A DNA stretch of 50,481 nt from Bacteroidota bacterium (lineage in GTDB: Bacteria; Bacteroidota; Bacteroidia; Bacteroidales; JAADGE01), in contig JAJRUH010000061.1 of NCBI GenBank assembly GCA_024277895.1, forward strand, positions 1 to 50,481. The letters run 5' to 3'. The notes below the pieces were generated by a model. That model saw only the letters and a list, made by a program, of their open reading frames with translations, was not told the DNA's origin and made no database searches. A program made the position numbers and the translations under genes. This document shows, one piece after another, positions 26,104 to 33,121 of the stretch (the first letter of the stretch is position 1; the number at the start of each line of letters is the position of its first letter).

Positions 26104-26131
26104 AAGAGCGGATTATATAAAATCCGCTCTT
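26104..26131. terminator. Bidirectional intrinsic terminator between convergent genes
   Basis: Perfect 11-bp stem AAGAGCGGATT / AATCCGCTCTT with T-rich flanks on both sides. Confidence 0.85.
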
Positions 26132-26139
26132 TAAATTTC

Positions 26140-28110
26140 TTAAACAAACTCAATATTTGCGAACTTCTCATAATCTTCAAGAACATTTAGTTTCTCAGCA
26201 GTTTTTCTGTTAACGAATAGTTTTACCGAATCAGGTTTAAAAACCCTGGAAGCAACCGGATTACCGTCTAACAAATCCATTGCAATTTTAACCGAAGCAT
26301 CGGTTACGGCATCCCAGGGAATAACATAACCTTCCAAACCTCCTCTGATTACGGTATCTTCAAGCATACAAACCGTAGGAAAATTATCGGTAATGATACT
26401 TAATAAATCATATCCTGATGAAGCAATAAAAGTACTCGTTCCTATATAAATCCATTTAACATTTTTACGTTTAAAATATTTTTTAGCTTTTTCAAAGTCT
26501 TCAATTTCCTGAATTTCATAACTTATAACTTCAATTCCTTTTTTTTCGGTATATTCTGTAATATCATCATATTGAATTTCTGCCTGCAACTCTCCTCTGC
26601 GATATAAAACTCCTATTTTTTTCAGATTCTTATCCGATATTAAAACAGTATGCTCAAATTGATCTTTAATTTCCGGAGCATAACAAACAGCATAATAATT
26701 ATTGTTATGATTTTTTTCAAAATCGGCAATTATTGCAGAACTGTATATTCCGGTAAAAACAACCGGAATTTCTTCATTTTTAAGATATTGTCCGATTCGC
26801 ATACTGACAGGAGAACCGATTGAGAATATTAAATCCGCTTTATCTTTTTTCAACTTATCAACAGCATGCATTAAATTTTCTTCATCGCGTTTACAATTTA
26901 CATAAGTAATTTGCAAATTATTATCTCTTTCTTTTCTGAAAATATATCCCGCTTTTTTTAAACGAGCCTCAATAATATTAATTGATTTTATATAAATTTC
27001 TAAATTATCCCAATAAAGAATACCTATCTTTTTAACTTTTTGCGTATAATGTTTGGCTCTCTCCTCACCTTTAAGTACACGTAAAGCACCCTGTGCCAAT
27101 GCTTTAAGCTCCGCTTCGCCGGGATATATATTTACTTTCCCTAAAAAATCAATACGTTCTCGAATCCAACCTGTCAACAATTCAGAATGAGCCAAACCCC
27201 CTGTAATAATTATTCCGTCAATTTCACCTTTTAAATTAGTAGCTCTTCTTCCGATTTCTTCAGCAATTTGATAAGCCATTGCTTTATAAACCAATTCGTA
27301 TTTTTCAGAACCGGCTGCAACAAATCGCTCAACATTTCTAGCATCGTTAGTGTTAAAATATGACATCAATCCGCCTTTTCCCACAACCATTTTTTTTAAT
27401 TCAGTTTCAGAATATTTTCCTGAAAGACATTTATCAAGATATTTAAAAAGAGGCAAACTTCCGCTTCTTTCGGGAGAAAAAGGTCCTTCATATAAACCGT
27501 GATTTACGTTTACGGCTTTTCCTTTTTTTAATGCGGCAACCGTAATTCCTCCGCCGAGATGTGCCACTATCAGATTTAAATCAGTTATTTTTTTCTTTAA
27601 AACTTGAGCATGTTCACGTGCCGTAGCAAAAATATTTAAAGCATGCAGCAACGACGATCTTTCAAAATCTTTATGTCCGGAAATACGAGCAATCGGTTCC
27701 AAATCATCCACAGCCGGTGGATCAACAATAAATGACGGAATCGAATTCTCCCAACCGATACTGTATGCAATAACACATCCCAAATTAGAAGCATGTTGTC
27801 CCTGGTAACCGTTCCGTGCGTCATTTATCATCTCCTGATCAACATAATAAGTTCCGCTGGGTATCGGTTTTATTAAGCCGCCTCTGCCTACAACTGCATC
27901 TAATTTATCTAAATTAAAACCATTCTTATTAATTGCCCCGATGATTTCTTCTTTACGGAATGAATATTGTTCCCAAATATCAGAATATTGTTCTAACTGT
28001 TTGGGACTGTGACTTACATTAATTTCAAACAAACATTCTTCATTTTGAAAAACACCTATTTTAGTAGAAGTTGAACCCGGATTTATTGTTAAAATATGAT
28101 ATCTTTTCAT
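26140..28110 (-). CDS. Fusion protein: butyrate kinase-like (N-terminal ~355 aa) plus ABC-type substrate-binding protein-like domain (C-terminal ~300 aa)
   Basis: 656-aa uninterrupted ORF. N-term: ILTINPGSTSTKIGVF, VVGRGGLIKPIPSGTYYVD, VAHLGGGITVAAL, GRRATNLKGEIDGIIITGGLAHS. C-term: KKIGILYWDNLEIYIKSINIIEARLKKAGY, DLIFSIGSPVSMRI, IPVVFTGI, GGLEGYVIPWDAVTDASVKIAMDLLDGNPVASRVFKPDSVKLFVNRKTAEKL. Confidence 0.88.
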   Translation of the reverse strand: MKRYHILTINPGSTSTKIGVFQNEECLFEINVSHSPKQLEQYSDIWEQYSFRKEEIIGAINKNGFNLDKLDAVVGRGGLIKPIPSGTYYVDQEMINDARNGYQGQHASNLGCVIAYSIGWENSIPSFIVDPPAVDDLEPIARISGHKDFERSSLLHALNIFATAREHAQVLKKKITDLNLIVAHLGGGITVAALKKGKAVNVNHGLYEGPFSPERSGSLPLFKYLDKCLSGKYSETELKKMVVGKGGLMSYFNTNDARNVERFVAAGSEKYELVYKAMAYQIAEEIGRRATNLKGEIDGIIITGGLAHSELLTGWIRERIDFLGKVNIYPGEAELKALAQGALRVLKGEERAKHYTQKVKKIGILYWDNLEIYIKSINIIEARLKKAGYIFRKERDNNLQITYVNCKRDEENLMHAVDKLKKDKADLIFSIGSPVSMRIGQYLKNEEIPVVFTGIYSSAIIADFEKNHNNNYYAVCYAPEIKDQFEHTVLISDKNLKKIGVLYRRGELQAEIQYDDITEYTEKKGIEVISYEIQEIEDFEKAKKYFKRKNVKWIYIGTSTFIASSGYDLLSIITDNFPTVCMLEDTVIRGGLEGYVIPWDAVTDASVKIAMDLLDGNPVASRVFKPDSVKLFVNRKTAEKLNVLEDYEKFANIEFV

Positions 28111-31882: not shown

Positions 31883-33121
31883 ATGAAAAAAATAATATTT
31901 ACAATTGCAGCTTTTATGATAACTGCAAGTCTGTTTGCTCAAATCAAAACAGACAAGGCAAAATTTCAAGAATATAAACCGGGATTTTACCAAAACTCCA
32001 TTTTGAAAGATGTGAGACATGTGAATGAAAGTTTGAAACCTAAAGAAGTTAAAAAACATTTTCAAATGGTTCAAACCGGATATAACATTCCGAATAAAGT
32101 AAGCGATTACAAAAGAGAATGGGCAAATCCCGTTATATCACAAGGAAATGCAGGAACTTGCTGGTGCTATTCTACAGTTTCTTTTTTAGAATCCGAAATT
32201 TACAGGCAAACCAAGAAAAAAGTCAAATTGTCCGAAATTTATACCGTTTATTGGGAATATGTTGAAAAAGCAAAAGAATATGTCAGAACCAGAGGAACAA
32301 GTAATTTCTCAGAAGGGTCAGAGGGAAATGCCGTAACAAGAGACTGGAAAAAATACGGAACAATGCCCTATTCTGTATATACCGGATTAATTAACGGCAG
32401 GAAATATCATTCTCATGCAAAAATGTTTAATGAAATGATAACATACCTGAAAGCAGTAAAAAAATCCGATGCTTGGAATGAAAAAGAAGTTGTTGAAACA
32501 ATTAAAGCAATTATGAATTACAATATCGGAGAACCTCCGACATCTTTTATCGTTGACGGAAAAAAATACACACCGATTTCATATATGAAAAATTATTTAA
32601 AAATTAATCCTGATGATTATATCGAAATTTTATCATACGAACAAGAACCGTTCTGGCAAAAAGTAGAATATAAAGTCCCGGATAATTGGTGGCACAGTAA
32701 AGATTATTACAACATTCCTCTCGAAGACTTTATGAAAGTATTAAAAAAAGCCATCCGCAGCGGCTACACAATGAGTATCGGCGGTGATGTTTCAGAAGCC
32801 GGATTTTTAAGAAGCACACAAGCTGCAGTTATACCTTCTTTTGATATTCCCTATCAATACATTGACGATAATGCAAGACAATTCCGCTTTTCTAACGGCT
32901 CAACAACCGATGATCACGGAATGCACCTTGTGGGATATACCGAAAGAAACGGTATGGACTGGTATTTAATCAAAGATTCAAGTTCAGGGTCCAGAAATAA
33001 CGACCCTAATGCTCCGGAATTCGGTTATTACTTCTTCCGCCAAGATTATGTAAAGTTGAAAATGATGGGCTTTACAATTAATAAAAATGCAGTAAAAGAC
33101 ATTTTAAAGAAATTTAAGTAA
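31883..33121 (+). CDS. Secreted C1-family (papain-like/aminopeptidase C-like) cysteine peptidase
   Basis: 412 aa; signal peptide; ISQGNAGTCWCYSTVSFLESEI (Q/C motif), DDHGMHLVGYTE (His motif), then WYLIKDSSSG where NSWG is usual. Confidence 0.85.
   Translation: MKKIIFTIAAFMITASLFAQIKTDKAKFQEYKPGFYQNSILKDVRHVNESLKPKEVKKHFQMVQTGYNIPNKVSDYKREWANPVISQGNAGTCWCYSTVSFLESEIYRQTKKKVKLSEIYTVYWEYVEKAKEYVRTRGTSNFSEGSEGNAVTRDWKKYGTMPYSVYTGLINGRKYHSHAKMFNEMITYLKAVKKSDAWNEKEVVETIKAIMNYNIGEPPTSFIVDGKKYTPISYMKNYLKINPDDYIEILSYEQEPFWQKVEYKVPDNWWHSKDYYNIPLEDFMKVLKKAIRSGYTMSIGGDVSEAGFLRSTQAAVIPSFDIPYQYIDDNARQFRFSNGSTTDDHGMHLVGYTERNGMDWYLIKDSSSGSRNNDPNAPEFGYYFFRQDYVKLKMMGFTINKNAVKDILKKFK

Follow-up and report, generated by a model that had tools for sequence, protein, structure and literature searches.

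Why should a butyrate kinase carry, at its C terminus, a domain of the kind that binds substrates for ABC transporters? The question is raised by an open reading frame in a Bacteroidota bacterium, on a stretch of DNA of 50,481 nucleotides, called the window below. An earlier note, made from the letters of the window, had read this frame as one uninterrupted 656-aa polypeptide in which a butyrate kinase (Buk) is followed by a PF04392-type substrate-binding protein (SBP) domain, and had proposed that the binding domain is a cytoplasmic ligand sensor. The parts of the frame are as follows.

26140..28110, minus strand: buk-SBP fusion frame, 656 aa (ATG start, stop-free frame, homologues)
27052..28110, minus strand: butyrate kinase (ASKHA) domain, aa 1-353 (TIGR02707, invariant columns, alignment with Buk2, 1saz/1x9j)
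27034..27051, minus strand: short variable linker, aa 354-359 (secondary structure, conservation)
26143..27033, minus strand: PF04392/TrpX-like class I substrate-binding domain, aa 360-656 (profile match, alignment, model, fold search)

The fusion protein and its kinase

The profile searches for which the earlier note had called place both domains above their cut-offs, in a single ATG-started and stop-free frame. TIGR02707 (butyr_kinase) matches aa 6-353 with 475.4 bits against a cut-off of 289.1, covering model positions 2-350 of 351, and PF04392 (ABC substrate-binding protein) matches aa 384-644 significantly, with 86.2 bits against 25.9. The latter profile is matched by all 27 C-terminal domains that were scanned; the TrpX equivalog NF041285 is not reached (86 bits against a cut-off of 390). 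Conservation is 0.82 in the kinase and 0.65 in the SBP domain, and 0.58 over the linker region (aa 351-359). The named carriers are metagenome-assembled genomes, which could favour a reading in which an assembly or frameshift error has joined two genes. However, 28 full-length or near-full-length copies come from separate assemblies, the homologues being 52-94% identical and free of internal stops, and NG86 dN/dS is ~0.04-0.22, or about 0.1, in both halves. We therefore give the artefact reading practically no credence and regard the uninterrupted frame as real.

The kinase domain is complete. N10, R76, D130, H184 and R215 do not vary among the fused proteins (28 of 28), and the alignment shows them in Buk2 as well; their catalytic roles are assumed from those in acetate kinase. 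In the GTDB family of the window's genome (f1), the fusion is the sole Buk-type match found, the other match in each genome being acetate-kinase-like. Because these residues are invariant and no other Buk-type match was found in f1, the fusion should, judging from its sequence, be the working Buk of these genomes. Subunits of a 2-oxoacid:ferredoxin oxidoreductase are also present, and this enzyme is a plausible source of the acyl-CoA.

The polypeptide begins with the kinase (MKRYHILTINPGSTSTKIG...) and has no signal peptide, so it is predicted to be cytoplasmic, as the earlier note had concluded; the signal peptide of an exported lipoprotein, expected of PF04392 proteins of the TrpX type, is absent from the fusion protein. 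Systems of the TrpX type use a permease of the PF02653 family. Such a permease was found in 0 of 12 fusion genomes versus 12 of 14 controls, and the window's genome has one PF04392 gene only. Among PF04392 proteins, CD0873 and TrpX work in ABC systems (PMC6816091, PMC9382623), which is the precedent for a reading of the fusion as a transport component whose SBP domain serves an ABC transporter. Since the matching permease is absent from all 12 carriers, and a cytosolic kinase stands where a signal peptide would be needed, we consider this role very unlikely and reject it.

Distribution and descent

The survey that the earlier note had suggested shows that the fusion recurs, in 20 of 22 genomes of f1 and, beyond that family, in four others of the order. 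In a sample of 395 genomes from the order, it was found in 15, belonging to five families (f1, f37, f46, f67 and f71); with the f1 relatives counted, the carriers, a group of uncultured bacteria, span 11 genera. As for the two f1 genomes without a full fusion, one (G013) has a gene cut by a contig end, so that it was rejected as a case of loss, and the other (G021) retains ptb and the leucine-dehydrogenase-like gene described below, though no fusion was found there. One genome, G020, holds a second copy (G020:C232, L093) almost identical to that of G014; G020 is rated 7% contaminated, and this copy is probably contamination. The class sample (396 genomes) and the phylum sample (399) yielded only standalone SBPs, with open frames of ~317-349 aa. 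Outside the phylum the search consisted of one pattern scan tuned to close relatives, which distant convergent fusions could escape.

Three order-level matches of ~650-670 aa (L059-L061) were rejected as fusions, as they are tandem double SBPs without a kinase. These genes (L059:337-2346, L060:355-2331 and L061:1249-3171), from other families of the order, encode 640-670 aa with two tandem PF04392-like domains, and the gene that follows the tandem SBP of L059 has a start resembling a STAS (anti-sigma antagonist) domain.

The fused kinase domains all lie on one side of a branch with 100/100 support, apart from 12 standalone Buks of the order, and the fused SBP domains likewise all lie on one side of a branch relative to other PF04392 proteins. 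Kinase and SBP distances correlate (r 0.87). Because both trees separate fused from standalone domains and the distances are correlated, the data are most simply explained by one fusion event, apparently followed by joint descent. In RpoB comparisons the carriers are placed near each other, and a single clade of fusion genomes is not rejected (p-AU 0.34), nor is it proven; as RpoB is compatible with one clade, spread by transfer between families need not be invoked.

On the dN/dS values given above, both domains are judged to be under purifying selection. The SBP half evolves ~1.7 times faster than the kinase, as might be expected if it were a functionless, neutral passenger of an old fusion. 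However, its dN/dS is about 0.1 like that of the kinase, 20 columns are invariant across the five families, and no truncation occurs in copies free of contig-end cuts, all of which makes a passenger role very improbable.

Fold and cleft of the binding domain

If the SBP domain is retained by selection, does it retain a site for a ligand? Its closest solved relatives are 6hni (CD0873), 3lft (TrpX, SP1069) and 3lkv (VC_1101), whose structures hold Tyr, Trp and Phe, respectively (PMC6816091). The identity to such amino-acid-binding SBPs is ~19-24%, a remote similarity. In an AF2 model the C-terminal domain has a pLDDT of about 90, and in Foldseek the closed, Tyr-bound form of CD0873 ranks first (TMt 0.85), ahead of the open form (0.75). 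In the structure prediction, which the earlier note had proposed for the cleft, the fold is confident and near to closed CD0873, with conserved cleft-side loops. How the two domains are placed relative to each other is poorly determined (pTM 0.68), and the model says little on their mutual influence.

Three sites in the domain stand out.

27010..27015, minus strand: Y366-W367, invariant, at the cleft-side end of the first SBP strand
26584..26592, minus strand: E507-x-Q509, at the place of the (S/G)E-x-N motif when aligned with CD0873, TrpX and VC_1101
26314..26316, minus strand: W599, nearly invariant, aligned with Tyr279 of CD0873

The second of these lies within Y503-x-x-G506-E507-L508-Q509, in which E507 and Q509 are found in 28 of 28 proteins; the invariant SBP residues include Y366, W367, Y503, E507 and Q509. 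More generally, conservation is greater in the loops facing the cleft than elsewhere in the domain (only 5 of 290 circular shifts were equally extreme), and for this reason it is plausible that a ligand site has been retained. Two pocket positions differ from CD0873, namely L583 for Glu263 and W599 for Tyr279, the latter being the specificity residue of CD0873 (PMC6816091). Given these two changes and the remote identity, the ligand may be something other than an amino acid.

The domain could instead bind the substrate or product acid of the kinase, or its CoA or phosphate ester, and aid catalysis by capturing substrate or relieving product inhibition, without responding to a separate signal. 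Near the cleft loops the conserved residues include charged and aromatic ones (R505 in f1, E507 and W599), which could suit an acid better than a zwitterion. The kinase nevertheless has its full set of catalytic residues without the SBP domain, and the standalone Buks of the order lack it; we regard an aid to catalysis as rather improbable.

Partner genes, proposed function and known counterparts

In the window, the fusion gene is divergent from the gene for ribosomal protein S1 (28305) and convergent with a DUF3276 gene, across a hairpin:

26104..26131, no strand assigned: terminator-like hairpin between two convergent genes (from the sequence)

With this hairpin on one side and the divergent S1 gene on the other, buk-SBP looks monocistronic here. 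Elsewhere in the window, 31883-33118 encodes a papain-family (Peptidase_C1) protein with a start resembling a secretion signal and a partial domain match only. The earlier note had found no ABC permease, ATPase or ptb gene adjoining the fusion, which is true within the window, but for ptb the absence is local. In relatives the fusion gene closes an operon of the order ptb - leucine-dehydrogenase (LeuDH) homologue - buk-SBP, complete in four loci (L080, L083, L087 and L089), and the LeuDH-like - buk-SBP pair is found in L074-L079, L081 and L093, which include loci of f37, f46 and f67. In the window's genus the operon is split with both parts kept: ptb and the dehydrogenase homologue stand side by side on another contig of the window's genome (G000:C54:5087-7236, L091), where their linkage to the fusion has been lost. 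The earlier note missed the operon because this genome has split it. Searched with phosphate butyryltransferase models, the ptb of the window's genome reaches 356-365 bits, which falls short of the strict cut-offs of these models. The fusion enzyme belongs to a ptb-type acyl-phosphate pathway. Compact fermentation clusters of the form pta-like - 3-hydroxyacyl-CoA dehydrogenase-like - acetate kinase - ptb were also observed (L095, L102, L099 and L152), with a standalone buk after ptb in L095 and L102; in L099 the dehydrogenase-like gene is missing and the order is pta-like - acetate kinase - ptb - buk.

The middle gene of the operon lies, in the window's genome, at

L091:6172-7236 (G000:C54:6172-7236): LeuDH-like gene (leucine dehydrogenase match)

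and its product matches leucine dehydrogenases (phmmer E about 1e-52), the fold being assigned by sequence similarity. In 15 of 15 sequences, Ser or Gly occupies the positions of both Lys80 and Asp115, the second of which we take to be a catalytic residue of leucine dehydrogenase, and Ala-Ser/Thr replaces Gly41-Gly42. Lys80 is the general base of leucine dehydrogenase (PMC12018205), and both Lys80 and Asp115 are retained by true paralogues in G162 and in the window's genome (G000:C164). The LeuDH-like protein is thus predicted to be inactive as an amino-acid dehydrogenase. The gene on G000:C164 (L151:2998-4350) encodes a Glu/Leu/Phe/Val dehydrogenase of 450 aa, in which the GGGK and AEDVG motifs are intact, and lies downstream of an acyl-CoA dehydrogenase-like gene. 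Across the order sample, the LeuDH-like protein (>500 bits) was present in all 15 fusion genomes and in none of the 380 others. Of the clues to function, this strict association is the strongest, though shared ancestry explains part of it and may explain most, since RpoB does not reject one clade.

The SBP domain could contribute to such a system in at least two ways. First, it could be a docking or scaffold module that binds Ptb and the LeuDH-like protein to the kinase, with ligand binding vestigial or merely structural. The exact co-occurrence and adjacency of the LeuDH-like gene, as well as the short linker, are consistent with a scaffold; however, the cleft-side residues are the more conserved part of the domain, and its invariant positions include the Y..GE.Q motif common to ligand-binding relatives, so that we consider a scaffold unlikely. 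Second, it could act allosterically, as a cytoplasmic sensor that gates the flux from acyl phosphate to ATP in response to a ligand, probably an amino acid or an acid made from it. Because the cleft side is the more conserved part, the residues named above are invariant and transport is very improbable, we lean towards the sensor. The kinase would convert acyl phosphate and ADP to acid and ATP, with butyrate or branched-acyl substrates; the C-terminal class I periplasmic-binding-protein fold would close around a small ligand, for which an amino acid or an amino-acid-derived acid is the likeliest candidate, and thereby set kinase activity. The module of buk-SBP, ptb and a catalytically dead LeuDH homologue would then stand at the ATP-yielding end of amino-acid fermentation. 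The inferred elements of this scheme are ligand binding in vivo and its effect on the kinase, the ligand's identity, and a regulatory role for the LeuDH-like protein.

A more speculative extension is that the dead LeuDH and the Buk-fused SBP act as two receptors that jointly sense amino acids, and perhaps also the NAD state, and gate the Ptb-Buk ATP step. We put this forward tentatively, as possible but doubtful; if true, such a gauge would consist wholly of components recruited from metabolism, and no such principle of regulation has been described for acyl kinases. We know of no allosteric ligand-binding domain described for the Ptb-Buk pathway. The architecture, of which the earlier note knew no description, was likewise not described in the literature searched, with most subscription papers outside the reach of that search. 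As far as could be checked, the parts belong to known families, while their combination, the strict partner and the apparent use are new. Together, the fusion and its dead dehydrogenase partner suggest an undescribed form of amino-acid sensing that controls fermentation. A Buk that bears a receptor of the amino-acid type, in strict association with a dead dehydrogenase, would illustrate how regulators can arise from the receptor of a transporter and from an enzyme of metabolism, and the three-gene system offers a defined setting in which amino-acid sensing of fermentation could be tested with purified proteins.

How does this system compare with those already known? The fusion shares with butyrate kinases (TIGR02707; Thermotoga Buk2, 1saz/1x9j) a full kinase domain, the invariant ASKHA residues and ~48% identity to Buk2, but it has an additional C-terminal binding domain of 300 aa; the sampled standalone Buks of the order, one of them truncated at a contig end, measure 356-376 aa and are without this domain. 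With SBPs of the TrpX/CD0873 type (PF04392; 6hni, 3lft, 3lkv) it has in common the class I fold (TMt 0.80-0.85) and the Y..(S/G)E.(N/Q) motif, whereas it differs from them in having no signal peptide or lipobox, in being joined to an enzyme, in having no permease partner and in its changed pocket residues, and the fused SBPs sit on a long private branch of 1.84 changes per column. The ptb, bcd and buk genes of the Bacillus bkd operon show the same order of phosphotransbutyrylase, leucine-dehydrogenase family protein and butyrate kinase; here, in contrast, the dehydrogenase is without the catalytic Lys80 and Asp115, and Buk bears a binding domain. Finally, AmiC of Pseudomonas is a cytoplasmic amide sensor with a binding-protein fold, a separate protein that controls an antiterminator. 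AmiC is therefore a precedent for a periplasmic-type fold serving inside the cell as a small-molecule sensor, as predicted here, but one that, unlike the fusion, is not joined to a metabolic kinase.
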